From Roseovarius aestuarii (GTDB lineage Bacteria > Pseudomonadota > Alphaproteobacteria > Rhodobacterales > Rhodobacteraceae), in the NCBI GenBank assembly GCA_027214255.1, contig JAPWHL010000009.1, positions 1-64,000 of the forward strand: a stretch of DNA of 64,000 nt, given 5' to 3'. The translations under genes and the position numbers were made by a program. Below are positions 3,382 to 19,704 of this stretch, one piece after another; positions within the stretch are counted from its first letter, which is position 1; each line of letters starts with the position of its first letter. The notes under the pieces were generated by a model. That model was not told the DNA's origin. It made no database searches and saw only the letters and a list, made by a program, of their open reading frames with translations.

Positions 3382-4610
3382 TCAACGTCGGGTGCGCGGC
3401 GCCATGTCGGGAACGGGTCATTCAGGTTGCTCCAAGCGTCGGGCGTAAATGCGTGCGCGTCTGCAACAAGGGCTGCATCCAGCGCTGCCGTGATGCCCGC
3501 CTTGTCCAACCCCGCGCCGATGAACACCAATTCCTGACGACGATCACCAAACGGCTCTTGCCAGTGATGCTGCAGATACTCGAGCGCTTGCGGGCTCGTC
3601 GGACGGCGGTCTTTGGGAACGCTTGCCCACCAGATACCCATTGGTTTGATGCTACTCAACGCACCTGCAAGCGAAAATTCTGCCAGCCAATCAGGGCGTG
3701 TTGCAATCCAGAAATGACCCTTTGCCCGGATGACACCCGGCAACTCACCGTTCAGGACGTCGTGAATCTTCTGCGGCTCAAAGGGCCGTCGCGCGCGATA
3801 CACAAACGAAGAAATCCCGAATTCTTCGGTTTCTGGAATGTGATCTGCGAATCCGTATAATTCTTTTGCCCACAGCGGGTTTTCATGCGCGGTGTCAAAG
3901 TCAAACAGACCTGTATCGAAAATACGGTCATGCGGAACCTTGCCATAATCTGCTTCGATAATCTGGGCATCGGGGTTCAACGCGACAACGATCAGACGCG
4001 CCGCTTGAACGTTGGCAGGCCCCGCGTCATTCGCTTTGTTAAGGATCACCACATCCGCAAACTCAATCTGTTCGACCAACAGATCAACAAGCGTGCGGTC
4101 ATCTGCTTCCCCCATTACCTCACCGCGATCGCGGAGGAAATCGTGGCTGGCATAGTCCTTTAGCAAATTGACTGTGTCGACAACGGTAACCATCGTGTCC
4201 AATCGCGCCACATCCGAAAGGCTCACCCCGTCTTCGTCGCGAAAATCGAATGTCGCGGCGACTGGCAAGGGTTCTGAAACACCGGTGGATTCAATAAGGA
4301 GATAGTCAAAGCGCCCCTCTGCCGCGAGTCGGCTGACTTCTTGCAGTAGATCATCACGCAGCGTGCAGCAGATGCACCCGTTCGTCATTTCAACCAGCGT
4401 TTCTTCTGTGTGACTGAGGTTCGCATCACCGTTGCGAATTACGTCGGCGTCGATATTGACCTCTGACATATCATTAACAATCACGGCAACACGACGCCCG
4501 TCACGATTTCGTAGAACTTCATTCAGAAGCGTCGTTTTTCCAGCCCCCAAAAAGCCTGAAAGGACAGTAACAGGAAGGCGTGAGTCAGTGGTCACAGATT
4601 GGATATTCAT
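3378..4610 (-). CDS. COG0523 zinc-metallochaperone GTPase (CobW/ZigA type)
   Basis: A 410-residue cytoplasmic G3E GTPase. It has the Walker [10 protein letters not shown] (residues 19-27), the metal motif [11 protein letters not shown] with Cys79, Cys81 and Cys82, a switch-like [15 protein letters not shown], the guanine motif ILNKAND, and a C-terminal CobW_C domain from about residue 265. Family members deliver Zn2+ to client enzymes using GTP. The MSEVN following the first strand is typical of the zinc-responsive ZigA/ZagA subgroup rather than cobalamin CobW. It follows zinT by 85 bases on the same strand behind a Zur-type palindrome, which supports zinc rather than cobalt. The start ATG at 4610 gives the conserved length. 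Confidence 0.9.
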
Positions 4611-4695
4611 TCTAGCGTGGCCTTTACGCTGAGGAGGTCAGGGACGGGTTGGCACGCCTGCCTGATGTGGCACGCGTGCTGCGTTGATGTGTGAA

Positions 4696-5355
4696 TCAGT
4701 GCGCAATCATGCTTTCCGCGATCTCAGCTCCGCTCAGATCGGCTGGAAAATATGTCGGCCAATTGGTGACTTCCGTCAGTAACTCGGCGCGGTCATTGCC
4801 CCAATACAGATGGTAATGGTCCGCCTTGGTCGGCACGATGATGTGATCACTGAATTGGATGAACTGCGGTGCAGCTTCGTCGCCGCCCGACTTTTCAAAG
4901 ATGTAACGCACACCTTGGTTGCCGGATTCGTAGGTCAGGATTTCATAGCCGTCGTTTTCGTATTGCCCCTGAACGGGCTGGCCATTCCGGAAAAACGTCA
5001 CGCTGGATCCGTCGATCAGAATGCGTTCCACATCAGTGGCATAACCCGTGGTATAGTACGCGCGGTATTCTTCGACGGTTTTGTCGCCGTCTTCGGCCTT
5101 ATGGGCAAGGACAGCGTCCAAGGTACCATCCTGCAAGAACGGATAAATCGACTGCCAATCGTTTTCCCAATCTGACAGATCGCGGGGCTGTACGTCTGCT
5201 TCATTTATCAACGACGGCTCATGGGCGTGGTGTTCGTGGCTTTGGGTGTCCGTTGTCTCGGTGTTCGAGGTTTGGGCGGGGGCCTGCTGCGCTGTCAATG
5301 TGACCAACGCACCGATGGCGATGACGGCTGTTTGTTTGAGGGTGAAGTTTAGCAA
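4696..5355 (-). CDS. zinT: ZinT periplasmic zinc-binding protein
   Basis: A 219-residue exported protein. A hydrophobic signal peptide (about residues 7-27, ending APA-QT) is followed by the His-rich linker HEHHAHEP and the ZinT/YodA lipocalin-like domain. Recognisable blocks are LSDWENDWQSIYPFL, YRAYYTTGYATDVERI and the zinc-site strand DHYHLYWGND. ZinT captures zinc in the periplasm during starvation and passes it to importers. The start is TTG at 5355, with GGAGA seven bases upstream. A Zur-type palindrome lies at 5383-5400, and the COG0523 GTPase follows in the same direction, so this is the lead gene of a zinc-starvation operon. Confidence 0.92.
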   Translation of the reverse strand: MLNFTLKQTAVIAIGALVTLTAQQAPAQTSNTETTDTQSHEHHAHEPSLINEADVQPRDLSDWENDWQSIYPFLQDGTLDAVLAHKAEDGDKTVEEYRAYYTTGYATDVERILIDGSSVTFFRNGQPVQGQYENDGYEILTYESGNQGVRYIFEKSGGDEAAPQFIQFSDHIIVPTKADHYHLYWGNDRAELLTEVTNWPTYFPADLSGAEIAESMIAH

Positions 5356-5641: not shown

Positions 5642-6628
5642 TTATATGCCGATGAAGGTCATGAACAACAGGGCGCAGGCCAACAAGAACAAGGTTTCGA
5701 CAATCAAGATAACGCTATAGCTCGCCTTCACTTGAGCGATGCGAGCCAGACTGGTTTTCACCCCCAGTGCCGAAATTGCGATGACGAGGCACCACCGAGA
5801 GACCTCCTCGAAAAGCGCCAACGGGGTTGCGGGGACCACCCCAAGATTTGTGACAACGGCGCAGACCGCAAACATCACAAGGAACCAAGGGACACTTAAC
5901 CGCTGCTGCTGGGCTCCGCGGAAACTGAGCATGACAACCAGCATCACCACCGGCAACAGCGCGACTCGCAGGATTTTGACGTAGGTGGCGATAACACCTG
6001 CCTCATCTCCGATCGAATAGCCTGCCCCGACGACCTGCGCGACATCGTGGATGGTTGCCCCCACAAGGAAACCGCTTTCCAGATCGCTTAGTCCCAAAGC
6101 CTGAAACAGGATCGGATAGGCGATCATCGCAATGGTCGATAAGGCTGTTACGCCGATAACAACAAACAATGTGTCCTGTTCGCGGTCCTTGTGGGGGGGC
6201 AAGACAGAGGCGATGGCAAGGGCTGCGGATGCGCCACAAATAGCGACGGACCCACCGGCCAGCATGCCAAAGGCCATCCGACGGCCAAGCAGGTAGGACA
6301 TCAACGCCCCACAGGCCAGCGTAGCCATCACAAAGCCGATGATGGCAATAACCGGACCAAACCCCAGACTGGTGACTTCGGCCAGCCCCAGACGAAAGCC
6401 TAGCAATCCCACCCCAAAGCGCAGCAATGTCTTGGCCGCAAAATTGATCCCTGCCGCACAGCGCTCGTTCTCGGATAGAAAGTGAAAGGCGATACCGATC
6501 AGCAGCGCAAACAACATCACCGGCGCACCGTAATGTTCGGACATGAACATTGCGGCAATGGCGATAACCGAAGCAAGCATTACCCCGCCAAAATACGGCT
6601 CAACACGGGATTTGACGAAGGTAATCAT
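5642..6628 (-). CDS. cuyZ: CuyZ/YeiH-family (UPF0324) putative sulfite exporter
   Basis: A membrane protein of 328 residues with about ten hydrophobic segments, of the UPF0324/YeiH family (COG2855). Typical blocks are FGVGLLGFRLGL, AGGSVAICGASAALAIASVL, GATIHDVAQVVGAGYSIG and KILRVALLPVVM. In Ruegeria pomeroyi the family member CuyZ sits with the cysteate sulfo-lyase CuyA and is proposed to export sulfite. Here it is the last gene of the strand carrying cuyA and an hpsN-like gene, so the same role is inferred. The start ATG at 6628 is preferred over one 11 codons earlier because AGGGGAA precedes it. The exported ion has not been shown from sequence. Confidence 0.78.
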   Translation of the reverse strand: MITFVKSRVEPYFGGVMLASVIAIAAMFMSEHYGAPVMLFALLIGIAFHFLSENERCAAGINFAAKTLLRFGVGLLGFRLGLAEVTSLGFGPVIAIIGFVMATLACGALMSYLLGRRMAFGMLAGGSVAICGASAALAIASVLPPHKDREQDTLFVVIGVTALSTIAMIAYPILFQALGLSDLESGFLVGATIHDVAQVVGAGYSIGDEAGVIATYVKILRVALLPVVMLVVMLSFRGAQQQRLSVPWFLVMFAVCAVVTNLGVVPATPLALFEEVSRWCLVIAISALGVKTSLARIAQVKASYSVILIVETLFLLACALLFMTFIGI

Positions 6629-6767
6629 GAGGGATTCCCCTAAAAGATGTGGGATGAGCAAATAGCGTAGCTTGGGCAGAATGTCAGGCTGCCGCTTTCA
6701 GGCTTGGAAAGGGGAGCATTTAGCCAATGCAGTGGGGGCAGGCGAGGGCCTCGTCGGACTCAGATTA

Positions 6768-8036
6768 TCATGTATTCAGCCTGATTTCTGCGGCTCTGGC
6801 GTGACCTTCCATGCCTTCTACTCGGCTGATACGTGCCGTGCGTAGGGCAAGTTCATGTGCGGCGTCCGGGGTGCAGCGTTGCCAAGTGACGGTCTTGGTG
6901 AACTTGTGTACAGACAGCCCACCTGTATAGCGCGCTGCGCCGCTGGTTGGCAGCACGTGGTTGGGGCCTGATGTCTTGTCGCCGAAGGCTACGGTGGTGT
7001 CTTTGCCCAAAAAGAGCGAGCCATAGGCTGTCAGGCGGTTCAGCCACCAATCCAGATTCTCGGCTTGTACCTGCAAATGTTCAGGGGCGTAGCGGTCTGA
7101 AACCTCGGCGGCTTCTTCGCGGCTGTCACAGAGGATCACTTCGGCGCGCTCTTCCCATGCGATGCGCGCAGCGGTTGCGTTGGGTTCCGGCAGGGCATCA
7201 ATCAGGGAGGCGACGCGGCTTAGCACGCCTTCGGCCAATGCGCGGTCCGTTGTAATCAGCCAAACAGGGCTGTCTGCGCCGTGCTCGGCCTGACTGACCA
7301 GATCCATCGCCACAGTATCGGGCGAGGCCGTGTGATCGGCCACAACCAGCGAGTCGGTGGGACCGGCGAACATGTCGATGCCGACGGACCCAAACAACAT
7401 GCGCTTGGCTTCGGCGACATAGCTGTTACCCGGGCCAACAAGGATATCGGCGGGCTTGCCGCCGAACAGCCCGCCAGCCATCGCTGCGATGCCCTGCACG
7501 CCACCAAGGTTCAAAATCAGGTCCGCGCCACACAGGTCCATGGCAAAGACAATAGCATCGGGGATGCCCGTGTCGGGGCGGGTCGGGGATACGGCCGTGA
7601 TGTGGGGAACGCCCGCGACCTTGGCGGTTGTCACTGTCATCAAGGCGCTGGCGATATGGCTGTAACGACCGCCCGGCACATAGCAGCCGGCGCTGGAGAC
7701 GGGGATGTTCTTTTGGCCCGCAATCAGGCCGGGCATCACTTCGACTTCACATTCGCCCATCGTTGCCTTCTGGGCCTCGGCAAAGCGGCGGATGTTGGCA
7801 TGGGCAAACCGGATATCATCCTTCAAACTGTCCGGGACGCGATCACAAGCGGCCTTGCGGGCGGAATCGGACAACACGATCGGGCCGCTCCAACCGTCCA
7901 GCTTCTGGGCATAGTTACGCACTGCCTCTTCGCCTTCGCGCGCGATATTGGACAGCATAATAGTAACGATATCGCGGATATCCTTGTTTTCGACAGCGGG
8001 ACGGGGGGTGGCGGTCTTGAGGTATGTGGTGGCCAT
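6768..8036 (-). CDS. HisD-superfamily dehydrogenase, HpsN-like (sulfonate amino- or polyol)
   Basis: A 422-residue Zn- and NAD-dependent alcohol-to-acid dehydrogenase of the histidinol dehydrogenase fold. The HisD metal and catalytic positions are present: Gln and His in VSQAEHG, Glu-His in RYAPEHLQV, Asp in FGDKTSGPNHVLP, and His in EGMEGHARAAEIR. The segment LDWWLNRLTAYGSLFLGK and the AYAQKLDGW block look like HpsN, which oxidises 2,3-dihydroxypropanesulfonate to sulfolactate, more than biosynthetic HisD. No his genes lie nearby. Its neighbours are cuyA (97 bases upstream, with a hairpin between) and cuyZ. By context the substrate is a C3 sulfonate. Cysteinolate is an attractive candidate because it is the sulfonate analogue of histidinol. 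Confidence 0.8.
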   Translation of the reverse strand: MATTYLKTATPRPAVENKDIRDIVTIMLSNIAREGEEAVRNYAQKLDGWSGPIVLSDSARKAACDRVPDSLKDDIRFAHANIRRFAEAQKATMGECEVEVMPGLIAGQKNIPVSSAGCYVPGGRYSHIASALMTVTTAKVAGVPHITAVSPTRPDTGIPDAIVFAMDLCGADLILNLGGVQGIAAMAGGLFGGKPADILVGPGNSYVAEAKRMLFGSVGIDMFAGPTDSLVVADHTASPDTVAMDLVSQAEHGADSPVWLITTDRALAEGVLSRVASLIDALPEPNATAARIAWEERAEVILCDSREEAAEVSDRYAPEHLQVQAENLDWWLNRLTAYGSLFLGKDTTVAFGDKTSGPNHVLPTSGAARYTGGLSVHKFTKTVTWQRCTPDAAHELALRTARISRVEGMEGHARAAEIRLNT

Positions 8037-8082
8037 GGAGTCAACTCGATTTCATCTGCTGATGGGCGCGGTTTGCGCCGTG

Positions 8083-8115
8083 TGGCGGCAGGGCATTGAT
8101 GCCAATCCCCCGCCA
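8083..8115. other. Intercistronic hairpin between cuyA and the hpsN-like gene
   Basis: Arms TGGCGG and CCGCCA enclose a smaller stem GGCAT/ATGCC. There is no T-run, so it is more likely an mRNA processing or stability element than a terminator. Confidence 0.35.
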
Positions 8116-8132
8116 CCGCACGGCATTCGATT

Positions 8133-9146
8133 TTAGATGGTGACCCAACGGTCAGCGTTGTCGAAGGCAAAGTCGTACCCACCCAGGGCCGCTGCGCCGC
8201 CTGTGTGCAGGAATACCACGCGTTCGCCTTTGAACGTGCCCTTGCGCGCCAGATCAATCAGGCCCGCTGCACCCTTGGCGGAATAGCAAGGATCCAAAAG
8301 AATGCCTTCCAACTCGGCAAACATACGGATCGCTTCGATGCCGCTCTCGGTGGGCAGGCCATAGCCGTCGCCGACGTAATCGGTGTTGGCCATCACATCT
8401 TCGCGTTTGACCACCCCGGGACAGCCCAGTTTCTCGGCGGTTTTACAGGCCAGATCATAAACCATCTGTTCCTGCTTGGGTTGCGGTGCGCGGGTGCCGA
8501 TGCCCAGAACGGGGATTTGGGCGTTCATCGCGCACAAGCCGGTCACAAGGCCGGCCTGTGTGCCTGACGAACCGGTTGCGTGCGTCAGCCGGTCGATCAC
8601 CAGCCCCGCGTTGTTGGCCTGACTTACCAGTTCGAAGGCGCAGTTCACATATCCCAAGGCACCGGTCGGGTTAGATCCGCCACCGGGAATGACATAGACG
8701 TTGTGGCCTTCGGCGCGTTTCTTTTCCGCGGCGCGTTCCATTTCACCGGGCATGTCGTGACCGGCAGGGAATTTTTCGGTGGTTGCGCCGTGCAGGTGAT
8801 CCAGCAACACGTTGCCGTTGGTGTTGTAGTTCGAGTTGTTATAGCCGGTTCGATCCTCCAGCAGGATATGACAGCCAAGACCCAGTTTGGCGGCATAGGC
8901 CGCAGTTTGACGACCGTGATTGGTTTGCGTCGCACCTTGGGTCATGACCATGTCGGCGCCTTGCTCCAGCGCTTCGGCCATCAGGAATTCCAGTTTGCGG
9001 GTCTTGTTGCCGCCAGTGGACATGCCAGTGCAATCATCGCGCTTGATCCACAGCTCGACGCCAAGTTCTTTGGACAGACGCTTCATCGGCTCCAGCGGTG
9101 TGGGCAGGTGGGCAAGGTGTACGCGCGGGAATCTGGACAGGTGCAT
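8133..9146 (-). CDS. cuyA: L-cysteate sulfo-lyase CuyA (PLP-dependent)
   Basis: A 337-residue fold-type II PLP enzyme of the D-cysteine desulfhydrase/ACC deaminase family. The PLP-lysine block [13 protein letters not shown] (residues 43-55), [19 protein letters not shown], the phosphate-binding [14 protein letters not shown] and the C-terminal [13 protein letters not shown] are present. CuyA splits L-cysteate into pyruvate, sulfite and ammonium; close relatives act on D-cysteine. The CuyA assignment rests on overall resemblance and on the neighbouring CuyZ-type exporter and HpsN-like dehydrogenase. AAAGGA precedes the ATG. The upstream regulator frame runs 113 bases into this gene. D-cysteine desulfhydrase activity remains possible. 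Confidence 0.82.
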
Positions 9147-10140
9147 TGTGGGATCCTTTTGGATGGGATGTGTGAATACGTGAAACGGAATTGGTTGTTA
9201 GTTGCGCCCGCCGCCGTGAGGGGGACACGCCAAACTCGATACCATAAACTTTCGCAAAGCTCGAAGAGCTCCCAAAGCCGCAGGCCACTGCGATTTCGGT
9301 GATGGGCAAGGCGGTTTGTTCTATAAGAGTCTTGGCGCGGCGCAGGCGCAGCGATCGATAGAATGCCATCGGAGTCTGTCCGAGGTATGCTTTGAACTTG
9401 CGTTCGAACTGGCGTATCGAAACCCCGGAAATGGCCGCCAAATCCGTCATCGCAAGCGGCTCTTCCAGATTGCTCTCCATGGCTGCGATTGCTGTTTCCA
9501 GCTTGATCAAGCGCAGGGCGTTGACATCGTTTTCACTACGCGGCTGGCGGGCACCATCGTCACGGATACGATCCATCAACATGATATTGCTTACCGCCTG
9601 AGACAGCCAGCTGGACCGTGGCGCGACGATCTGGCTTAGAATGATGTCCGCAGCGGACGCCATGCCAGCCGCAGTCGTGATGCGCCCAAGTTTGGTAAAC
9701 AGGGGCAGTTTATCATGTTGATCGCAGGTGGCTGAGGACCAGACTTGGTGATCTTCCCAATGGGTGGTGATCCAGTTCGCCTCGGGGTTCAGGCCGCGCC
9801 AAGCAGCCGCAGCGTCTGACATCAGGATGATGCTCTGGCCCATGCGTTCGCACCACCGCAGGCGGGTACGCAGCTTGTTGAAACAGGCACCAATGCCGGT
9901 GCCGCCCAGCACCACCAGATAATCTGACAAAACGGCATCATCTGTCGGTAGCGGGTCGGCCTGTACGAACATTCCGCCCTTGCCTTCGACCACGTCAGTT
10001 TCGGTCGTCGTGCACAGATTAACATCAAAGCGGATGCCATGGCCAAGCCGATTGGCGATGCGCAGGACATCCTGCACCATCGCCAGTTCGGTGGGAACGA
10101 ACCCTTGTTCCACCAGAACAGTGACCTGAACCTCGACCAT
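9034..10140 (-). CDS. GlxA-family AraC-type transcriptional regulator
   Basis: 368 residues. An N-terminal DJ-1/PfpI-like amidotransferase-fold domain (about 1-185) acts as a ligand sensor, and a C-terminal AraC HTH pair follows (about 215-315: [20 protein letters not shown] and [20 protein letters not shown]). The fold family includes GbdR and CdhR, activators of glycine betaine and carnitine catabolism, which fits the oxidase seven bases upstream. Family members normally stop soon after the second HTH. This one runs about 50 more residues of low-complexity basic sequence, overlapping cuyA by 113 bases. The probable reason is loss of the original stop. It probably activates this operon in response to the substrate. 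Confidence 0.85.
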
Positions 10141-10147
10141 GATCCGG

Positions 10148-12583
10148 TTAGCCCCGCATCAGGGAATAGTCAGGATCATAGGGCGAGGGCGCGATGACTT
10201 CGACATTCACAAGGTCTCCGTACAGATCCAGTTGCATGATGCTGCCCGGTGAGGCCAGCGCAGGATCGACAAAGCCATAGGCCAGATTCATGCCAACCCG
10301 ATGTCCCCAATCGCCTGAGGTGATTGTGCCGACGACCGTATCACCCTGCATCAGCGAGGCACCGCCATGGGCCGGGGCATGGGTGGCATCGACCTTTAAT
10401 GTCACCAGCGTCTTGCGATGTCCTTCGGCGTGTCGTTTCAACAGAGCGTCTTTGCCGATGAAGGTGGGTTTCTCCAGTTTCACAAAGCGATCCAGCGCCG
10501 TTTCAAACGGGTCGAACTCGGTCAGAAGGTCGGCTTTCCAGTGCAGGAAACCTTTCTCCATCCGCATTGATTCAACCGCACGTGCGCCAAACAGTTTCAG
10601 GCCGTGTGCCTCGCCCGCTTTGCGCAATGCCAGATAGGCGGCATAAAGCGACGCGTTGGGTACGTGGATTTCATAGGCCAGTTCGCCAGAGAAACTGACG
10701 CCCAGAACCGTTGCCGGGGCAAATCCAATAAAGCACTCACGCGCGCTTAGCCATGGAAAGGCCGTACGCGACCAGTCACCGCGCGAACAGGCAGATAGCA
10801 CATCACGCGCCTTGGGGCCTGCCAGAACCAAAATGGCCTGATCGTTGGTCAGGCTGCGAATTTGGACATCTTCGTCGGATGACAGGTGTTTTTGCAACCA
10901 GTCCATGTCGTGCAGTTCGCTGGCCGCAGCGGACCCGTACCACACGCGCGCAGGCCCGCGATCGCTGGCAGGCAGGTTGGCAACCGTTGCTTCGCCTTTG
11001 ACCATGCCGTGTTCGTTCAGCAGATACCCCAGCCCGACGCGGCCATCCCGTTTGGTGACGGCCCCACAGAACATCCGATCAAGGAACGCATGGCGATCCG
11101 CGCCGGTGATCTCGAACCGGTTAAAGCCGTTGACCTCGCAAAGGCCGACGTTTTCTTGCACGTTTTTGATTTCGGCGGCGACGACGTTGAATGCTTCGTC
11201 AAAGTTGAAGCTTAGTGTTGGGTGAAAATCGGGAGACGGTTTGATATAATCTACGCGCTCCCAGCCATTCACAACTGTAAATTCGGCTCCTTCGGCGGCC
11301 ATGATTGGCGTTAGCGGTGTGGTTTTGGCCGGGCGGCCCGCTGGACGGTGTTCGTGCGGAAAGTGAAACCGGAACTCGTTTTGATAGTCTTCGATTGCCT
11401 TCAGCGCCGTCAACTCGACATTGGTATGTCCGGTAAAGCGGCGCGGGTCGATGACCCATGTGTCATAGCACGCTTCGCCATGCACAATCTGTTGCGCCAA
11501 AAGCCAGCCATGCCCACCGCCTTCGCCCAGACCGGCCCGCAGGCCAATGATGCAGAATGCATTGCGTTTACCTGGAATCGGACCAACAAGCGGCGCGCCG
11601 TCGATTGTGTAAGTAATCGGGCCGTTCACGACCCGCTTGATGCCGACCTCTGTCAGCACTGGCATCCGCTCGAACGCGCCTTCCAGCACATCCATTACGC
11701 GCTCTAGATCGTCAGGGCACAGGTCGTTGGAGAAGTCCGGGCTGATTCCGTCCATGCCCCATGTCCGACAATCCTGTTCGTAAAAACCTACCAGAAGGCC
11801 GTTTTTTTCCTGACGGGAATAGTAATCTGAGATTGGGCAGCGTAGCAGGGGCATCCGGTGGCCTGCCTCAACGATGGCCGGAATATCCTCAGTTACAAAA
11901 TACTGATGTTCCATCGAGGCGACAGGGTGATGCACGCCCATCATCGCACCGACTTCGTTCACGCGATACCCGCAGGCGTTCACAACGATATCGGCGTCGA
12001 TGGTGCCCTTGTCGGTTTCAACTGTCCACGTGTCGTCTGCTTTCTGGGTCAGACCGGTGACTGTGGTCTGGCGGTACACTTCGGCGCCTGCCTTGCGCGC
12101 ATGAAAGGCCAGTGCCTGACACAGCTGTGCAGGGTCGATATCGCCGTCTTCGCCATCCCAAAGACCGCCCAGCAGGTTGTCGGTCGAAATCAGTGGGTGA
12201 CGGCGCGCGCATTCTTCGGCGTCGATCACTTCGTAGGTCACCCCCATGCCGCGCGCCATGGATGCAAAATGACGATAGCCCTGCATCTGTGCTTCGGTGT
12301 TGGCCAGACGGATTCCACCATCTCCGTGGTGATACCCCACGGGATACTCCGGATCGTCACGCAATTTTTTGTAAAGGGCGATGGAATGGCTTTTCAGGCC
12401 CACCATGGTCTGGTTGGCGCCAAAGTTCGTCACCTGAGCAGCTGAATGCCACGTGGTGCCCGAGGTCAGTTCGTCGCGTTCGATCAAAACGACATCACTC
12501 CAACCCTCCTGCGTCAAGTGATAGAGAGTCGAGCAGCCGGCGATGCCGCCACCGATAACAACAACTTTGGTTCGCGATTTCAT
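10148..12583 (-). CDS. FAD- and folate-dependent amine oxidase/demethylase (dimethylglycine dehydrogenase family)
   Basis: 811 residues: a DAO-type FAD domain (1-370; dinucleotide motif VVVIGGGIAGCSTLYHL), an FAO_M linker (about 373-430), a GcvT-like tetrahydrofolate domain (about 440-710) and a GcvT C-terminal barrel (720-805). TSGTTWHSAAQ keeps the His that carries covalent FAD in dimethylglycine and sarcosine dehydrogenases. Such enzymes oxidatively remove N-methyl groups and hand the one-carbon unit to folate. It is first in the minus-strand operon, followed 7 bases later by the GlxA regulator and then cuyA. The divergent gene is an MttB-type methyltransferase. The likely substrate is a secondary or tertiary N-methylated amine, possibly sulfonated. 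Confidence 0.85.
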   Translation of the reverse strand: MKSRTKVVVIGGGIAGCSTLYHLTQEGWSDVVLIERDELTSGTTWHSAAQVTNFGANQTMVGLKSHSIALYKKLRDDPEYPVGYHHGDGGIRLANTEAQMQGYRHFASMARGMGVTYEVIDAEECARRHPLISTDNLLGGLWDGEDGDIDPAQLCQALAFHARKAGAEVYRQTTVTGLTQKADDTWTVETDKGTIDADIVVNACGYRVNEVGAMMGVHHPVASMEHQYFVTEDIPAIVEAGHRMPLLRCPISDYYSRQEKNGLLVGFYEQDCRTWGMDGISPDFSNDLCPDDLERVMDVLEGAFERMPVLTEVGIKRVVNGPITYTIDGAPLVGPIPGKRNAFCIIGLRAGLGEGGGHGWLLAQQIVHGEACYDTWVIDPRRFTGHTNVELTALKAIEDYQNEFRFHFPHEHRPAGRPAKTTPLTPIMAAEGAEFTVVNGWERVDYIKPSPDFHPTLSFNFDEAFNVVAAEIKNVQENVGLCEVNGFNRFEITGADRHAFLDRMFCGAVTKRDGRVGLGYLLNEHGMVKGEATVANLPASDRGPARVWYGSAAASELHDMDWLQKHLSSDEDVQIRSLTNDQAILVLAGPKARDVLSACSRGDWSRTAFPWLSARECFIGFAPATVLGVSFSGELAYEIHVPNASLYAAYLALRKAGEAHGLKLFGARAVESMRMEKGFLHWKADLLTEFDPFETALDRFVKLEKPTFIGKDALLKRHAEGHRKTLVTLKVDATHAPAHGGASLMQGDTVVGTITSGDWGHRVGMNLAYGFVDPALASPGSIMQLDLYGDLVNVEVIAPSPYDPDYSLMRG

Positions 12584-12660
12584 AGGAAGCGCCTCTGATT
12601 CATTTTACGGGAATAAGGGGTGCAAGGCGGTAAGGCCGCAATCCGTATTATGGTAAGTCG

Positions 12661-12672
12661 CAAAATTTCGAA
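12661..12672. promoter_or_regulatory. 12-base motif shared by the two intergenic regions of the amine island
   Basis: CAAAATTTCGAA lies in the divergent region between the FAD oxidase and mttB. The identical 12 bases occur at 15328-15339 between the lysR gene and the ABC transporter. An AT-rich run flanks both. It is a candidate operator for the adjacent LysR or GlxA-type regulator. Confidence 0.45.
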
Positions 12673-12762
12673 TAATATATTTGATGAATTAGTACAAAGT
12701 GGGAATGCTTTGCCTTCTCGTCAGCAAAGTACCTTCACTCCGCCTGAAACAGGAGGGGTGCT

Positions 12763-14280
12763 ATGACAGAACAACGCGCAAGACGAACCGGACGGCGGGA
12801 ACGCATGGCACTGCGTGCGGCAGGGCCGGCATCGGATCCATGCCCGCCCGGTCAAATCGGTGGAAGCTACAAGCCACTGACCGACGCCGAAGTGCAGAAA
12901 ATCTACGGTACTGCGCTGGATTTGCTGGAAAAGCTCGGAATGGGCGATGTCCCTTCTCGTTTGTACACTGACTTGCTGGCGGTTGGGGCAATCGATAACG
13001 GCGCTGGGCGTGTTCTGTTTCCACCCACGTTGGTCCAGACCGCGATTGATCAGGCAGCCAAGACGTTTGTCCTGCACGGACGTGATCCCGAACGTTCGAT
13101 CGAGGTGGGCGGTAATCGCGTTCACTTTGGCACTGGCGGTGCTGCGGTCCAGACATTGGACATGGACAGCGGCATCTATCGGCCCTCAACCCTGACGGAT
13201 TTGCACAACTTCACACGATTGCAAGACACGCTGGCGAATGTCAGTTGGTTCACCCGCTGTTGTGTGGCGACAGATGTGCCGGATAACTTTGATCTGGACG
13301 TTAATACCGTTTACGCCCTGCTTAAGAACACGACCAAGCCGACGGCCACGTCTTTCACCTTGGCTGAACATGTGGATCCGATCGTTAAAATGCTGGACAT
13401 CGCCGCAGGCGGGCCAGGTGCGTTCGCCAAACGCCCGTTTATGAAGGCCCATATCAGCCCGGTTATTTCACCTATGCGTTACGGCGAAGATGCAGTGGAC
13501 GTGGTCTATGAGTGCATCAAGCACAACATCCCGATGTCCTGTATCACCGCGGCACAGGCCGGGGCGACTGCGCCTGCTACGTTGGCCGGATTTCTGGCAC
13601 AGTCGCTGGCTGAAACATTGGCCAGCCTTGTAATGGTGCACGCGATCCAGCCCGGCTTTCCGATGGTGTTCTCCAACTGGCCGTTGGTCGTTGACCTACG
13701 CACCGGATCGTTTTCAGGCGGGAGCGGCGAAACCGCCGTGCTGAACGCGGCCTCGGCGCAATTGTCCAACTGGCTGGGTTTGCCGTCCGGCGTGGCCTGT
13801 TCAATGACCGACGCCAAGGCGATTGATGCGCAATACGGCGCGGAAAAAGGGATTACCTCGTTGGCTGCGGCCCTAGCAGGGGGCAATTTGATTTATGAAA
13901 GCTCGGGGATGACGGCATCCCTTCTGGGCGCTAGCTTTGAGGCCTTTGTTCTGGATGACGAAATGCATTCGGCCACCTATCGCGCATTGCGCGGAATCGA
14001 AGTGACCGACGAAAACCTTGGCTTTGACGTGATCTGTGATGCGGTTCTAGGGGCGGGACATTTTCTGGGCAATCAGCATACCTATGCCGCTATGGAGCGC
14101 GATTATTTCTATCCGTCGCTGGCGGATCGTGATGAGCCACGCACATGGGCCGAGAACGGGGCTCAAGATGCGTGGGGCAGGGCGCGCGCCCGTGCGCAGG
14201 ATATCCTGCAACGTCACCAGCCTGCATATCTGAGCGATGAGCAAGACAAGGCAATCCGCGCCCAGTTCAACATTCTTTGA
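12763..14280 (+). CDS. MttB-family methylamine:corrinoid methyltransferase, non-pyrrolysine type
   Basis: A 505-residue TIM-barrel methyltransferase of the trimethylamine methyltransferase superfamily. Blocks include YKPLTDAEVQKIYGTALDLL, a glycine-rich FGTGGAAVQTLD, FMKAHISPVISPMRYGEDAV and FSGGSGETAVLNAASAQLSNWL. The frame has no internal TAG, so it is a non-Pyl member like MtgB, which transfers methyl from glycine betaine, or MtpB, which uses proline betaine. AGGAGGGG precedes the ATG. It is divergent from the FAD/GcvT oxidase and convergent with lysR. No corrinoid-binding MttC-like protein or activase is in the window, so the acceptor must be encoded elsewhere. The substrate is probably a quaternary amine. 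Confidence 0.85.
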   Translation: MTEQRARRTGRRERMALRAAGPASDPCPPGQIGGSYKPLTDAEVQKIYGTALDLLEKLGMGDVPSRLYTDLLAVGAIDNGAGRVLFPPTLVQTAIDQAAKTFVLHGRDPERSIEVGGNRVHFGTGGAAVQTLDMDSGIYRPSTLTDLHNFTRLQDTLANVSWFTRCCVATDVPDNFDLDVNTVYALLKNTTKPTATSFTLAEHVDPIVKMLDIAAGGPGAFAKRPFMKAHISPVISPMRYGEDAVDVVYECIKHNIPMSCITAAQAGATAPATLAGFLAQSLAETLASLVMVHAIQPGFPMVFSNWPLVVDLRTGSFSGGSGETAVLNAASAQLSNWLGLPSGVACSMTDAKAIDAQYGAEKGITSLAAALAGGNLIYESSGMTASLLGASFEAFVLDDEMHSATYRALRGIEVTDENLGFDVICDAVLGAGHFLGNQHTYAAMERDYFYPSLADRDEPRTWAENGAQDAWGRARARAQDILQRHQPAYLSDEQDKAIRAQFNIL

Positions 14281-14287
14281 CGAAGCC

Positions 14288-15262
14288 CTAGGTCAGCAAC
14301 TTGAAGCTGTCCACCAACCAAGGGTTGCTTTGATGAAAGGGCACAATTGCGTGATCCCGTATCAGGCTGCGCATTTTGCTGTCGACAAGTTCGACCACGG
14401 ATCGTGAACAGTCCGGTGTCGAGACTATGGCCAAGGTGCGCGAAAAGCTTTTGCCCGGAAACCGATGCATGCGCAGCCGTGATTGAAACCGTTTGGCCCG
14501 CGCGAACAAAAGGGGGGTCGTGATCGTCCAGCCGGCCCCGGCCGCAACCATGGCCATAAGCGTCTGGTTGTTGCTGCATTCAAATTTATGCGGTGACGTT
14601 ACGCCCATTCGGCGCAGTTGGGATTCGATCTGTCGTGCTATCATCAGGTTGCTGGAAAACCGCAGGAAGGGCAGTCTGGTATGTCCTTCGACAATATCGG
14701 AAAGGGATTGCTCGTTGACCAGCGGCAGCACTACGACGAATGGGTCACGCAGCAACGGGCGATCCTGAAGGTCGCTTAGCCGTTCGGTCGGCTCGGTGGT
14801 TATTCCCAAATCCAACTGGCGGTTTCGCAGCATTTCAATAAGGTCAAAGCTGGAACCGGTTTGGTACATGAAATCGCAGGTTGGCATGTTCGTTGACAGG
14901 TAGACGGCCAGTTCCGGAGTAATGTCGCTATCAAAATCCTCGATCGTGCCTAACCTCAGATAGCTAGCCTCAGACACACTTCCGGCCGAGGCTTCAGCCT
15001 TGGCTTTGCGAATGGAAAACAGGGCGCTGTCAATGTTGCGCAAAAAGGCGCGGCCCTTTGGGGTCAGAACCATAGGCCGTCGGGCATGATTGAACAGCTC
15101 TACGCCCAAATTGTCTTCTAGATTGCGCAAATGGTGCGACACTGTGCTGACTGTCAGCCCGCTTTCCCGGGACGCGGCCTGAAGCGAGCCATTCTTGGCG
15201 CAGATCTGAAACAGCTCCAGCGATTTGAGGCTGATATCTTTGGACGATGAAAGGCGTGACAT
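14288..15262 (-). CDS. LysR-family transcriptional regulator
   Basis: 324 residues. The N-terminal winged HTH is at about 12-70 (LKSLELFQICAKNGSLQAA, SHHLRNLEDNLGVELFNHAR), followed by a LysR substrate-binding domain (about 98-305). It is convergent with mttB (7 bases apart) and divergent from the ABC transporter operon, the classic arrangement for a regulator of the neighbouring genes. The CAAAATTTCGAA motif lies in its own upstream region and also upstream of mttB. The ligand is unknown and is likely the transported amine or a breakdown product. Confidence 0.88.
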   Translation of the reverse strand: MSRLSSSKDISLKSLELFQICAKNGSLQAASRESGLTVSTVSHHLRNLEDNLGVELFNHARRPMVLTPKGRAFLRNIDSALFSIRKAKAEASAGSVSEASYLRLGTIEDFDSDITPELAVYLSTNMPTCDFMYQTGSSFDLIEMLRNRQLDLGITTEPTERLSDLQDRPLLRDPFVVVLPLVNEQSLSDIVEGHTRLPFLRFSSNLMIARQIESQLRRMGVTSPHKFECSNNQTLMAMVAAGAGWTITTPLLFARAKRFQSRLRMHRFPGKSFSRTLAIVSTPDCSRSVVELVDSKMRSLIRDHAIVPFHQSNPWLVDSFKLLT

Positions 15263-15327
15263 CAGACGGACCCCAGAGCGCTGTTGAATGAAAGCACATT
15301 ATTAACAAAATATGAAATTATAAATAT

Positions 15328-15339
15328 CAAAATTTCGAA
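15328..15339. promoter_or_regulatory. Second copy of the CAAAATTTCGAA motif
   Basis: Identical to the site at 12661. It sits 66 bases upstream of the lysR start and 103 bases before the transporter start, inside a strongly AT-rich divergent promoter region. This is consistent with a regulator binding site. Confidence 0.45.
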
Positions 15340-15441
15340 CATGCGCATTAAACATCTGTGGGTTTTGAAAAACGTGGAAGCGTCGCTCCGTATTGATGAG
15401 CACGGGCTATTAGCCGCTCAGTCCAACAAAGTGGAGAAGAC

Positions 15442-16404
15442 ATGAAACGACTGATTTTGACAACTGCATGTGTCGTTGGGTTTGCTGCCCCTGCCGTGGC
15501 TGATACCTGTGGTGAAGTGACCATCACTCAGATGGACTGGGCCTCGGCAAACGTGGTGACATCGGTGGCCAAATTCCTGATGGAACAAGGCTATGGCTGT
15601 GATGTGACAGCTGTGCCGTCGTCAACACCGACTGCGCTGACATCAGTTGCCGAAACAGGTACGCCAGACATCCTGACCGAACTGTGGGTCAATACCGCCC
15701 CCGCCTATGACAAGCTGATTGCCGAAGGCAAGCTGGTGGAACTGACCGATGTGCTGTCCGACGGTGGCATCGAAGGGTGGTGGGTGCCCCAATACGTGGT
15801 TGATGCCCATCCCGAAGCCGCCACTTTGGAAGGCATCCTTGCCAATCCAGATCTGGTTGGGGGCCGCTTTGACAACTGTCCGGATGGCTGGGGGTGCCGG
15901 ACGGTCAATGACAACATGAACCGCGTCATCGACATGCAAGGCAATGGGATCGAGGTGTTCGATCATGGATCAGGCGAAACTCTGGCCACGGCGATTGCTT
16001 CGGCATACGCCAACAAAGAGCCATGGTTTGGTTTTTACTGGTCGCCTACCGCCATCTTGGGCAAGTACCCGATGGTGCAGGTCGACATAGCGCCATATGA
16101 GGCCGAGGTTCACACCTGCAACAGCTCGAAAGAATGTGCCGAACCAGGCCTGTCGGCCTATCCAAGTGCAGCTGTGAAAACAGCCGCAACCAACAGCTTT
16201 CAGCAGCGCGAGCCCCAGATTGCCGAACTGATGTCCAACATCAGTTTCACCAACGAGCAGATGAACGGGATTCTGGCATGGATGGAAGACAATAACGCGT
16301 CCGCCGAAGAAGGCGCTGTGTACTTCCTGACCAGCAATAAAGATCTCTGGGCTGACTGGCTGAACGACGCAGCACGCGAAAAACTGTCGGCGGTTTTGAA
16401 GTAA
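15442..16404 (+). CDS. Betaine-type ABC transporter periplasmic binding protein (OpuAC/ProX)
   Basis: 320 residues with a cleavable signal (CVVGFAAPAVAD, cut near residue 20), then an OpuAC-type binding domain. Tryptophans and tyrosines at family cage positions are visible (ITQMDWASANV, TELWVNTAPAYDKL, EPWFGFYWSPTAILGKYPM), as used to hold trimethylammonium groups by cation-pi contacts. Paired cysteines (CPDGWGC; CNSSKEC) suggest disulfides. It starts a three-gene transporter operon with permease and ATPase and is divergent from lysR. Preceding AAAGTGGAGAAG supports the ATG. The ligand may be glycine betaine or another N-methylated zwitterion. Confidence 0.88.
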   Translation: MKRLILTTACVVGFAAPAVADTCGEVTITQMDWASANVVTSVAKFLMEQGYGCDVTAVPSSTPTALTSVAETGTPDILTELWVNTAPAYDKLIAEGKLVELTDVLSDGGIEGWWVPQYVVDAHPEAATLEGILANPDLVGGRFDNCPDGWGCRTVNDNMNRVIDMQGNGIEVFDHGSGETLATAIASAYANKEPWFGFYWSPTAILGKYPMVQVDIAPYEAEVHTCNSSKECAEPGLSAYPSAAVKTAATNSFQQREPQIAELMSNISFTNEQMNGILAWMEDNNASAEEGAVYFLTSNKDLWADWLNDAAREKLSAVLK

Positions 16405-16482
16405 CCCACCATAGTTTGCGTGGCCCGGTCATAACGATGATCGGGCCATGTTGGCGTTATTGAGCAAGCAGGAGAGGCAGCC

Positions 16483-17517
16483 GTGGCGAGCTACGAAAAG
16501 ATATTCGATGGAATTGGCTTGCGGGATTGGTGCGACGCCGACGCGTCCGAATCCCCCATGACCATGGCTCAACTGCTGGCTCAAAGCAGCGGCGGCGCGG
16601 ATGGAGATTCGGGGCCGTCTATACCGTTTCCTTCCCTTGATACGTTACACGAAGCCTGCGCAGCTATCCCGCAATCGCGGGATCTAACTGTAAACGTCGA
16701 GGCCGGATTTCTTGCGATCAAGGACAGCCTGAAGTTCGTTCTTGACCCATTGACGCAGCCTTTGTCGTGGATGTTGGAAGGCGCTCTTTACGCCTTTGCG
16801 ACGATCCCTTGGTGGATATTGATCCCGTTGTTGATTGCCGCAGCATGGTTTGCGACCCGAAAAACAGGTATCACGGTTTTTGTCGCGGTCGCTTTCTTGT
16901 TCTTCGGCATCACGGACCATCTGGATGTCGCATTGCAAACGCTGTCTATCATATTTGTCTGTACCGGGCTGAGCGTCGTGTTGGGCGTACCCATAGGCAT
17001 TTTGATGTCCCGGTCCGACCGGTTTCAGAGAATAATGTTACCCATCCTGGACATGCTACAAACCTTGCCCAGCTTTGTTTATCTTATTCCGCTCATCTTT
17101 TTGTTTTCCGTGACCGAACCCAAATTGTACGGTATCGCAATCATCCTGTACGCGATTGTGCCGGTGATCCGGTTGACCGATCTGGGTATTCGACTGGTTG
17201 ACCCTGATGTGACTGAGGCTGCCGATGCCTTTGGGATGAGTTCCCGACAAAAGCTATATGGTGTGCAACTGCCTCTGGCGCTGCCCAACATCATGGCGGG
17301 GGTAAATCAGACGATCATGATGAGCCTCGCGATGGTGGTGATTGCCTCGCTGGTGTCCGCTCCGGGGTTGGGCGTTCTGGTGCTGCGCGGTATCCGCAAC
17401 CTTGAGTTGGGCGTGGGGCTGGTCGCCGGTTTTGGCATCGTCCTGCTGGCTGTTGTTCTTGATCGTTGCTCAAAGGCCGCATTGCAGCGCATTGATCCAA
17501 CCCATGAAGCGGAATGA
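16483..17517 (+). CDS. Betaine-type ABC transporter permease (ProW/OpuAB)
   Basis: 344 residues. A hydrophilic N-terminal segment of about 75 residues precedes about seven membrane segments and the BPD_transp_1 core (about 150-335). The ATPase-coupling loop follows the pattern EAADAFGMSSRQKLYGVQLP-LALPNIMAGV. The start is GTG at 16483, with AGGAGAGG upstream; an internal ATG at 16558 is less well placed. It lies 78 bases after the binding-protein gene and 7 before the ATPase gene, so the three are co-transcribed. Confidence 0.88.
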   Translation: MASYEKIFDGIGLRDWCDADASESPMTMAQLLAQSSGGADGDSGPSIPFPSLDTLHEACAAIPQSRDLTVNVEAGFLAIKDSLKFVLDPLTQPLSWMLEGALYAFATIPWWILIPLLIAAAWFATRKTGITVFVAVAFLFFGITDHLDVALQTLSIIFVCTGLSVVLGVPIGILMSRSDRFQRIMLPILDMLQTLPSFVYLIPLIFLFSVTEPKLYGIAIILYAIVPVIRLTDLGIRLVDPDVTEAADAFGMSSRQKLYGVQLPLALPNIMAGVNQTIMMSLAMVVIASLVSAPGLGVLVLRGIRNLELGVGLVAGFGIVLLAVVLDRCSKAALQRIDPTHEAE

Positions 17518-17524
17518 TAGACCA

Positions 17525-18583
17525 ATGAGTACTCCGAAAATTCGCGTTCGAAACCTGTATAAGATCTTTGGGTCGACGCCCGAAAAAGTGCTGCCTTTGG
17601 TGCGCGATGATGGCATGGGCAAGCCCGAGCTACTGGAGTTGCACAAACATGTGCTGGGTTTGCAGAACATCAATATTGATATGCAGGCCGGTGAAATTTC
17701 GGTGATCATGGGATTGTCGGGATCCGGTAAATCGACTCTGATCCGGCACTTGAACCGCCTGATTGAGCCGACTGCCGGTGAAATCCTGTTGGACGGGCGG
17801 GATGTGACCGAACTGGATGATCTAGGTCTGCGCCAGATGCGCCAGAAATCCATGTCGATGGTGTTTCAGAAATTCGCCTTGTTGCCCCACAAGACAGTGC
17901 TTGAAAACGCCGCGACGGCCCCTCGTATCTGCGGTGTCGCCCGCGAAACCCGAGAGGCCGAGGCGCGCAAATGGTTAGAACGCGTTGGGTTGTCTGGTTT
18001 TGAGGATCGTTATCCCCGCCAGTTGTCAGGCGGGATGCAACAACGGGTGGGGATTGCCCGCGCGTTGACAGCCGACACAGATATCATGCTGCTGGACGAG
18101 GCGTTCTCTGCCCTTGATCCGTTGATCCGAACGGACATGCAGGACCTTCTGATGGAGCTGCAAACCGAACTGAACAAAACCATTGTCTTCATCACGCATG
18201 ATTTGGATGAGGCACTGAAACTGGCGGACCATTTGGTTATTCTCAAGGATGGCGCTGTTGTCCAACAGGGTGCCCCGCAGGAGATTGTCATGAACCCCGC
18301 CGATCCTTACATTGAGGCGTTCGTCGGCGATATCAATCGCGCCCGCGTTCTGCGCGCCGGTACGATCGCCAGTGAGGGTAAGCCAGACGGCGTTGTGGCC
18401 GGGCAAGTGGATTGGCAAGATACGCTAGAGGCCGTCATAAGGGTGGCCAAAGGGCGCGCTGATGTCACGGTTCTGGTGGTCAAGGGCGGCCAAACCGTCG
18501 GTAAGATAGAGATGCGTGAACTTTTGTCGGCGCTGATCCCGTATAGTTCTGCGCACAGCAGGGCCACGCAAAGCGCCAGCTAA
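17525..18583 (+). CDS. Betaine-type ABC transporter ATPase (ProV/OpuAA)
   Basis: 352 residues. Walker A GLSGSGKST, Q-loop VFQKFALLPHKTVLEN, signature LSGGMQQRVGIARAL, Walker B IMLLDEAFSALDPL and switch His in VFITHDLDEALKLADH are all present. The extended N-terminus before Walker A (IFGSTPEKVLPLVRDDGM) is typical of ProV. Only part of a regulatory C-terminal region is seen, without two clear CBS repeats. The ATG at 17525 is preferred over an in-frame upstream start that would overlap the permease by 60 codons. Confidence 0.9.
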   Translation: MSTPKIRVRNLYKIFGSTPEKVLPLVRDDGMGKPELLELHKHVLGLQNINIDMQAGEISVIMGLSGSGKSTLIRHLNRLIEPTAGEILLDGRDVTELDDLGLRQMRQKSMSMVFQKFALLPHKTVLENAATAPRICGVARETREAEARKWLERVGLSGFEDRYPRQLSGGMQQRVGIARALTADTDIMLLDEAFSALDPLIRTDMQDLLMELQTELNKTIVFITHDLDEALKLADHLVILKDGAVVQQGAPQEIVMNPADPYIEAFVGDINRARVLRAGTIASEGKPDGVVAGQVDWQDTLEAVIRVAKGRADVTVLVVKGGQTVGKIEMRELLSALIPYSSAHSRATQSAS

Positions 18584-18844: not shown

Positions 18845-19030
18845 CTGCAAGCTCTGAAAATTGCACATTTGGATTGTGAATACAGGTAACTGTTCGGTGC
18901 ACATCACAGACTGCCGTCGCCCGGTTTCATAGCGCCGCTGTAGGGCGTTACCATCATATCCACCCCAACGGCTTGGCAACATTGTGCGGATAGCGAAAAC
19001 CCCCTTAGATGAATGGAAAAGGACTCGACC

Positions 19031-19702
19031 ATGAGAGCACTTCAACTGACACTTCTGGCTTCGGTCATGGCCGCACCACTTTCGGCCCAAGAAACGCGTG
19101 AACTAGATGCCCATGTGCACGGGGTCAGCACGCTTGAGCTGGCTATCGAAGATGGCATTGTTGAGATGAGCCTCATGTCGCCGGGCATGGATATTGTTGG
19201 CTTTGAGTATTCTGCGTCAACGGCTGCGGACAAGGATGCGGTCGAGAGCGCCCTTCGCAAGCTGACGGTGCCGGAAAATGTCGTGACGTTGCCCGAAGCG
19301 GCCGAGTGCCGTCTTGCCGAAGTTCTGGTGCATGTCCATTCAGAGGACCATGAAGGCCATGATGAAGATGAAACGCATGGGCATGGCGATCACGAAAAAG
19401 AGGCGCACGGGCATGATGAGCATGAGCACGAAGACCACAACGATGATGCACATGAACACGACAAGCAGGAACATGACGATCACGACGACGATGCGCATGA
19501 ACACGCCGAACACGGCCAGCACAACGAATTTCACGTGCGCTACAAGTTTGCATGTGATCACTCTGACGACCTGAGTGCGATCACTTTCCCGTTTTTTGCG
19601 CAGTTTGAGCATGCGCAGGAAATCGAAGCGCAATATGTCACCGAGACGGGCTCAGGATTGGCCGAGATCGAGCGCGACGCCCCGCAATTGTCATTGGAGT
19701 AA
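19031..19702 (+). CDS. zrgA: ZrgA-like (DUF2796) histidine-rich periplasmic zinc-binding protein
   Basis: 223 residues. A signal peptide (residues 1-19, ending PLSA-QE) is followed by DAHVHGVSTLELAIEDG, the DUF2796 opening block. A central stretch of roughly 70 residues, about 105-165, is built almost wholly of His, Asp and Glu (HDEHEHEDHNDDAHEHD-type repeats). A conserved C-terminal part, FPFFAQFEHAQEIEAQYVT, closes the protein. Vibrio ZrgA belongs to this family and feeds zinc to an ABC importer under Zur control. A Zur palindrome upstream and ABC genes 2 bases downstream fit that role. The ATG at 19031 directly precedes the signal peptide; an upstream in-frame ATG adds only MEKDST. Confidence 0.85.
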   Translation: MRALQLTLLASVMAAPLSAQETRELDAHVHGVSTLELAIEDGIVEMSLMSPGMDIVGFEYSASTAADKDAVESALRKLTVPENVVTLPEAAECRLAEVLVHVHSEDHEGHDEDETHGHGDHEKEAHGHDEHEHEDHNDDAHEHDKQEHDDHDDDAHEHAEHGQHNEFHVRYKFACDHSDDLSAITFPFFAQFEHAQEIEAQYVTETGSGLAEIERDAPQLSLE

Positions 19703-19704
19703 GC

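Follow-up and report, generated by a model that had tools for sequence, protein, structure and literature searches.

A gene island in Roseovarius aestuarii predicted to degrade an N-methylated C3 aminosulfonate

We analysed bases 1-64000 of contig 121 (JAPWHL010000009.1) in the 4.4-Mb Roseovarius aestuarii assembly GCA_027214255.1, and this whole stretch of 64,000 bases is referred to as the window. Named matches of the window suggest that the host belongs to the Rhodobacteraceae/Roseobacteraceae. A gene cluster at positions 5642-18583, hereafter the island, appears to encode a single, modular pathway that degrades an N-methylated C3 aminosulfonate of the cysteinolate type, and we give this reading a probability of roughly 0.6. 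The substrate would most simply be N-methyl, N,N-dimethyl or N,N,N-trimethyl 2-amino-3-hydroxypropanesulfonate. We observed the genes themselves, their conserved linkage in other genomes, a residue signature of HpsN in the dehydrogenase, a changed pocket in the importer, and genes for a corrinoid protein and for CuyB elsewhere in the genome. An earlier note on this DNA had placed the gene set on both strands and named its families; the open reading frames (ORFs) were found at those places and the families were confirmed by profile matches. The component families CuyA, HpsN, MtgB and dimethylglycine dehydrogenase (DMGDH) are known, as the note had said, and no account of a full pathway that combines them was found in the open-licence literature, among the matches listed (subscription journals and preprints being outside the scope).

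Organization of the island

In the order of transcription, the minus-strand run consists of fadT, the gene of a GlxA/GbdR-like regulator (glxA), cuyA, an HpsN-type hisD and cuyZ. Divergent from fadT stands mttB on the plus strand, followed by lysR on the minus strand and then, again on the plus strand, by genes for an OpuAC-type binding protein, a permease and an ATPase of an ATP-binding cassette (ABC) importer. The features are as follows.

5642..6661, minus strand: cuyZ-like sulfite exporter, YeiH type (PF03601, 201 bits)
6768..8036, minus strand: HpsN-type zinc alcohol dehydrogenase, annotated HisD, proposed to be a cysteinolate-type dehydrogenase (PF00815)
8133..9146, minus strand: cuyA, cysteate sulfo-lyase (equivalog NF052482, 518 bits against a cut-off of 450)
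9034..10140, minus strand: GlxA/GbdR-like AraC regulator (best NCBIfam match GbdR)
10148..12583, minus strand: fadT, flavin adenine dinucleotide (FAD) plus GcvT demethylase, DMGDH-like (PF01266, DAO; PF16350, FAO_M; PF01571, GCV_T; PF08669, GCV_T_C)
12584..12762, no strand: divergent region of 179 bp between fadT and mttB, presumably with both putative promoters (from the spacing)
12763..14280, plus strand: mttB, MttB/MtgB-family methyltransferase, presumably a corrinoid-dependent quaternary-amine demethylase, non-pyrrolysine (PF06253, 363 bits)
14288..15262, minus strand: lysR regulator gene, often kept beside fadT/mttB (family and locus comparison)
15442..16404, plus strand: substrate-binding protein, OpuAC family, closest to the DMSP-binding protein DmpX (match to 7yle; DMSP, dimethylsulfoniopropionate)
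16483..17517, plus strand: ABC permease, ProW/ChoW type (TIGR03416, 235 bits, below the cut-off of 363)
17342..18583, plus strand: ORF of the ABC ATPase, ProV/ChoV type, its true start likely near 17525 (TIGR01186, 344 bits against a cut-off of 327)

The minus-strand genes are tightly spaced, with 7 bp between fadT and glxA, an overlap of 113 bp between glxA and cuyA, 96 bp between cuyA and hisD and 106 bp between hisD and cuyZ. A similar overlap of 92 bp between the regulator gene and cuyA is annotated in Leisingera methylohalidivorans (locus L272).

An HpsN-like dehydrogenase

Over the aligned letters, the window HisD shares 61% identity with RpHpsN (8wwe) and 56% with CpHpsN (8v35). The zinc, catalytic and sulfonate-binding residues of CpHpsN were taken from PMC11382572 and mapped with the chain index equal to the number in the paper plus one, a numbering under which the D-to-A change in the 8v37 chain falls on D352. 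The window HisD keeps H126, Q248, H251, E318, H319, D352, K353, H359 and H411, and S226 is replaced by Thr, as in RpHpsN. As read by eye from an alignment, the positions of the HpsN sulfonate residues H126 and K353 are both Tyr in the histidinol dehydrogenase 9lbv. An assignment of the window protein as a biosynthetic histidinol dehydrogenase was rejected, since it has the HpsN and not the HisD residues at these two positions. The genome holds three more relatives of the window HisD, at 49, 48 and 37% identity.

A tree was built from 45 rows, many of them chosen for lying beside fadT; the rows were matches of more than 380 residues without stops, with identical rows merged, and interrupted copies such as that of genome G241 are absent. 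The window HisD fell in a clade of 21 rows with a support of 100/99. Because this clade is separate from RpHpsN, we class the enzyme from its sequence as HpsN-like and not as HpsN proper. The HisD proteins of loci L073, L085 and L194 grouped with RpHpsN. A third group consisted of the copies from L082 and L088. The fadT-mttB pair adjoins three HpsN-type lineages in this tree, whose rows were partly picked for lying beside fadT. CpHpsN crystals were obtained with L-cysteate, which also inhibits the enzyme (PMC11382572), so an amino analogue should fit the HpsN site. Oxidation of a cysteinolate-type compound to L-cysteate would explain the presence of the racemase CuyB in other clusters.

The same enzyme could instead act on R-2,3-dihydroxypropanesulfonate (R-DHPS), with CuyA ending a route from DHPS over sulfolactate, sulfopyruvate and cysteate and with N-demethylation merely supplying one-carbon (C1) units. 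In PMC11382572, DHPS catabolism is reported to have a CuyA branch, and the hisD genes that lie beside fadT-mttB in L073, L085 and L194 are those that group with RpHpsN. However, the window HisD belongs to the separate clade, and neither a sulfolactate dehydrogenase nor a further DHPS dehydrogenase was seen among the families of positions 5642-18583 or in the annotation of L272, although no search was made with models for these enzymes. Moreover, a DHPS route has no need of a run that joins fadT to the genes of electron-transferring flavoprotein (ETF), FolD and PurU, as found in some clusters below. We consider this alternative very doubtful.

Sulfonate cleavage and sulfite export

The window CuyA passes its equivalog model with the score listed above and is 78% identical to the CuyA of the Ruegeria pomeroyi megaplasmid. 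Release of sulfite from D-cysteate is its predicted function. The window CuyZ scored below the cut-off of TIGR00698 (113 against 232.6 bits). Its assignment is based on its closeness to the R. pomeroyi protein that adjoins cuyA on the megaplasmid (73% identity), which is listed as CuyZ beside cuyA in PMC4334477 under the name SPOA0157, and on its place in a cuyA cluster, where in the window hisD lies between cuyA and cuyZ. The CuyB gene of this genome was found on another contig, at C88:46817-47476 (268 bits against a cut-off of 190). DegT, which accompanies cuyA and cuyB in several relatives, might at a guess act as a transaminase between the keto form and the amine. The AraC regulator of the island failed the GbdR model NF052371, with 144 bits against a cut-off of 480.

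MttB, FadT and a corrinoid partner

The window MttB passes PF06253 far above the cut-off of 25 bits. It did not pass as a trimethylamine methyltransferase, as TIGR02369 gave 351 bits against a cut-off of 525 and the frame contains no internal stop that could be a pyrrolysine codon, and its nearest solved relative is the glycine betaine methyltransferase 9yce/2qne. The genome contains seven MttB genes above the PF06253 cut-off and one fragment below it, at eight places on eight contigs. A single match to PF02607 was found in the genome, namely a stand-alone protein of 256 aa with B12-binding_2 and B12-binding domains on contig C88, with genes for DUF1638 and homocysteine methyltransferase nearby. 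As the sole match of its kind in this genome, the corrinoid protein probably serves as the partner of MttB.

Up to seven MttB-family paralogs are reported in PMC12478193, which suggests other methylated substrates for them, and roseobacters have several that lack an assigned substrate. The MtgBCD system for glycine betaine demethylation in R. pomeroyi described in the same paper is similar to the island in that an MttB-family demethylase could share one stand-alone corrinoid protein, whereas the window MttB forms a separate ortholog group.

FadT carries the DAO, FAO_M, GCV_T and GCV_T_C domains in one chain, which is the domain set of DMGDH, and it matches human DMGDH (5l46) near its full length with an E value of 1e-148. 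Its demethylase activity is predicted from this likeness. FadT shares the FAD and GcvT domains with DMGDH over nearly the whole length but differs in that some of its loci have C3-sulfonate genes beside fadT.

The importer and its binding pocket

The nearest solved relative of the binding protein is 7yle (E value 7e-135), which we equate with the RnDmpX of PMC10030565, since its numbering reproduces every one of the eight pocket residues reported there. That paper describes a DMSP pocket of eight residues, including a Tyr that forms a hydrogen bond with the sulfonium. The window protein keeps six of the eight and carries the changes A153G and Y200F, and on this comparison it was not counted as a DmpX. 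Both changes were present in all five mttB-linked copies that were read, namely the window, L041, L124, L128 and L272, while A and Y were kept at positions 153 and 200 in the sole copy read that lacks mttB, L127 (the gene that also appears as L196). The binding protein of L132, which was matched only in pieces, was left out of the pocket reading. The loss of the Tyr at position 200 would fit a quaternary nitrogen better than DMSP. A betaine-type importer also accompanied mttB across loci, being present in 10 of 72 non-redundant fadT loci with mttB and in 1 of 92 without it (p = 0.001).

It is unlikely that the importer is a plain DMSP transporter, DmpXWV, unrelated to the remaining genes. The closest solved protein is a DmpX, and the DmpX of R. 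pomeroyi is reported to be highly specific for DMSP (PMC10030565). Against this stand the two substitutions, one of them at the very Tyr to which the bond with the DMSP sulfonium is ascribed, and their occurrence in five of five mttB-linked copies but not in the copy without mttB.

Comparable clusters in other genomes

The one-pathway reading of the earlier note was supported by relatives in which the two halves of the island are linked. The closest is plasmid NC_023136 of L. methylohalidivorans (L272), with the order importer-lysR-mttB-fadT-glxA-cuyA-DegT-cuyB-hisD-cuyZ, which is the order of the window plus DegT and cuyB between cuyA and hisD. The identity between the two was 82-91% for the ATPase, permease, binding protein, mttB, fadT, cuyA and hisD, 78% for lysR, and lower for the regulator (55%) and cuyZ (47%). 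The plasmid of Mesorhizobium sp. 131-2-1 carries proXVW-lysR-mttB-fadT-glxA and, about 15 kb further on, cuyA-DegT-cuyB-tauABC-hisD; on this plasmid and on that of Ruegeria SCSIO 43209, mttB, fadT, cuyA, cuyB and hisD lie within about 30 kb. Five plasmid records with mttB orthologs were found, and three of these also had cuyA on the same plasmid. The linkage of mttB, fadT, cuyA and hisD, which the note had proposed to look for in other Rhodobacteraceae genomes, is present in part of the loci.

In other clusters fadT stands with cuyA, cuyB and hisD but without mttB, as seen in Roseovarius, Sulfitobacter, Phaeobacter, Paracoccus and Pseudomonas. In two of them, L116 of Roseovarius dicentrarchi and L117 of Sulfitobacter CW3, the order is fadT-glxA-cuyA-DegT-cuyB-hisD-cuyZ, accompanied by lysR and a taurine-type importer. 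The gammaproteobacterium Pseudomonas sp. MPC6 has, on a plasmid typed as conjugative, the order cuyA-cuyZ-hisD-DegT-TRAP-cuyB-fadT-proX-etfBA-purU-folD-ETFQO-proVW (TRAP, tripartite ATP-independent periplasmic transporter; ETFQO, ETF-ubiquinone oxidoreductase), and Paracoccus seriniphilus, likewise on a plasmid, has fadT-etfBA-folD-purU-taurine-type importer-cuyA-DegT-cuyB-hisD. ETF, FolD and PurU would be expected to take up the electrons and C1 units that a demethylase of the DMGDH type releases. The three also lie beside fadT, with sulfonate genes absent nearby, in L150 and L161 of the named set defined below and in the plasmid locus L271, which appear to be a bare run for demethylation and formate release. 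Adjoining the P. seriniphilus cluster (L275, 2820-5206) is a GbcA/GbcB-like Rieske pair with 469 and 338 bits, below the cut-offs of 670 and 500, together with a GbdR-like regulator, and GbcA-like homologs were also found in the fadT loci L119 (67%) and L172 (59%). Such Rieske genes perhaps substitute for MttB as the first demethylase.

On the megaplasmid of R. pomeroyi DSS-3 (L265), the CuyB gene SPO_RS20085 (14549-15247; 276 bits against a cut-off of 190) directly follows fadT, SPO_RS20090, and no mttB ortholog was found on this megaplasmid at the threshold used. The cysteate racemase of R. pomeroyi is called unknown in PMC11382572, and SPO_RS20085 is a candidate for it.

The mttB-fadT pair lies beside a ProXVW-type importer in L039, L040, L048, L085, L144 and L169. 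An arginase/agmatinase-family protein is encoded in L040 and L144, with homologs in L039, L048, L169 and L173; these neighbours hint that the demethylases may also serve a different class of substrates. A 367-aa ORF in L088 gave no family match.

Linkage statistics and the case for two modules

The family sample comprised 295 genomes, about one per genus. Orthologs of mttB (at least 62% identity, the next matches being clearly set apart at 47% or less) were found in 59 of the 295 genomes, those of fadT in 93 and those of cuyA in 89, with the window included in each count. Besides the window, 55 of the 58 mttB genomes also had fadT, and in 46 the two genes were within 10 kb of each other. With the window excluded, cuyA was present in 45 of 92 genomes with fadT and in 43 of 202 without it (p = 4e-6), an association that may in part reflect genome size or life-style. 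Where both genes occurred (45 genomes), cuyA was at most 10 kb from fadT in 5, compared to 0.26-0.28 expected from genome size (P of about 1e-5, or about 1e-4 when all genomes were taken as 2.2 Mb), and the closeness of fadT and cuyA exceeds chance.

Neighbourhoods were compared in three sets: a genus-spread set of 94 fadT loci from the family sample, in which a gene split between two contigs (G142) accounts for two loci; a named set of the best 80 of 572 confirmed stretches, ranked by their match to the window fadT; and a control set of 17 loci around paralogous mttB genes. The sulfonate markers counted were hisD, cuyA, cuyB, DegT, tauA, tauC and cuyZ. In the genus-spread set, 13 of the 94 loci had any marker and 10 had hisD, cuyA or cuyB. 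The named set contained hisD in 19 of its 80 loci, tauA-type genes in 17, tauC-type genes in 15, cuyB in 9, cuyA in 8, DegT in 5 and cuyZ in 3; any marker was present in 24, compared to 0 of 17 control loci (p = 0.01). Clustering of ORFs from 175 loci gave fadT, mttB, lysR, hisD, taurine-type transporter genes, cuyA, cuyB and DegT as families present in at least 10 loci, along with another type of LysR, ABC ATPases of the ProV and other types, and frames overlapping the listed genes.

Several findings weigh against a single pathway. The genus-spread set did not differ significantly from the control set in sulfonate markers (13 of 94 against 0 of 17, p = 0.21). Merging loci with identical fadT reduced the 175 loci to 165, and leaving out L041, an mttB locus without fadT that had been included for its binding protein, gave 164 non-redundant loci; 132 of these, some on short contigs, lacked hisD, cuyA, cuyB and tauA in the fetched stretch. 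The demethylation pair is often alone or in different company, and fadT/mttB were seen with DMSP genes in Marinovum, arylsulfatases in Roseobacter litoralis and arginine-type genes in R. pomeroyi, while agmatinase-like genes lie near some proXVW loci. A taurine-type importer was found in 4 of 73 loci with mttB (L041 counted) and in 14 of 92 without it, which is not significant (p = 0.076). CuyB and DegT are missing from the window cluster, whose importer has a DMSP-binding protein as its nearest solved relative, and no N-methylated cysteinolate was found in the open-licence literature, among the matches listed.

These findings could be explained by two independent modules brought side by side by horizontal transfer, with cuyA-hisD-cuyZ for cysteinolate, cysteate or DHPS and mttB-fadT-importer for an ordinary betaine such as glycine betaine. 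The many fadT loci without sulfonate markers, the GbdR-like regulator and the nearest solved relatives, DMGDH for FadT and a glycine betaine methyltransferase for MttB, all agree with such a neighbourhood of convenience. In contrast, fadT and the cuyA set are co-directional, with the 7-bp gap and the gene overlap between them. Furthermore, hisD follows within 210 bp of fadT in L097, L136, L164 and L166 even though cuyA is absent there, the fadT-sulfonate linkage recurs in varied orders in Rhodobacterales, Hyphomicrobiales and Pseudomonas, and the only catabolic families present in at least 10 of the 175 loci were mttB, hisD, cuyA, cuyB, DegT and fadT, the rest being transporters, LysR and overlapping frames. 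We consider two modules unlikely, though the least so of the three alternatives, with the DHPS route ranking last.

Proposed pathway and relation to known systems

For the pathway that we favour, the substrate, the order of reactions and every enzyme activity are predictions from sequence. The OpuAC-type ABC system would import the quaternary form, and MttB would transfer one methyl group from the quaternary nitrogen to the corrinoid protein. FadT would then strip the remaining methyls oxidatively, yielding methylene-tetrahydrofolate and passing electrons to ETF. The HpsN-type enzyme would oxidise the CH2OH group to COOH to give L-cysteate, CuyB, encoded elsewhere in the genome, could convert this to D-cysteate, and CuyA would split the product into pyruvate, ammonia and sulfite, the last of which would be exported by CuyZ. 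Demethylation before oxidation is one possible order.

The downstream half resembles the CuyA branch of C3-sulfonate catabolism (R. pomeroyi cuyRAZ; HpsN-SlcD-CuyA), with which it has CuyA, CuyZ, an HpsN-type dehydrogenase and the expected products in common. The island differs by adding N-demethylation (fadT, mttB) and a betaine/taurine-type importer, and by the separate clade of its hisD. In N-methyltaurine dissimilation, as in Alcaligenes and Paracoccus versutus, the substrate is an N-methylated C2 sulfonate from which methylamine is released instead of demethylation taking place, whereas the substrate proposed for the island is a C3 compound and would be demethylated.

In its broader form, the proposal is that N-methylated cysteinolate or cysteate, a sulfonate betaine, has a pathway of its own in which both the importer and the front end (MttB with a corrinoid protein, a GbcAB-like Rieske pair, or none) can be exchanged. 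It would imply undescribed marine N-methylated C3 sulfonate osmolytes and a substrate class for the orphan MtgB-type paralog and the DmpX-like importer, and we see the chances of this broader form as evenly balanced. According to PMC8703288, cysteinolic acid is a common solute of algae, with cellular levels that can be higher than those of DMSP. If the proposal is true, the island ties algal solutes of the cysteinolate type to orphan MttB paralogs, a methylated sulfonate pool is predicted in the sea, an orphan B12-dependent demethylase gains a substrate class, and SPO_RS20090 and SPO_RS20085 become testable genes in R. pomeroyi.

Flanking genes

Zinc-type genes lie on both flanks of the island, with a CobW-type GTPase and ZinT on the left (3378-5355) and ZrgA, an ABC ATPase, an FtsX-type permease and DUF3299 on the right (19013-22156). 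In the relative L279, cobW-zinT and zrgA-ABC-DUF3299 are about 6 kb apart (within about 12 kb) without the island and in a different order. L279 was rejected as a clean empty insertion site because of this different order. The island may lie within what was once a group of zinc genes. Upstream of the zinc-type genes and outside the cluster, a betaine/carnitine/choline transporter of the BCCT type is encoded at 574-2217 of the window.

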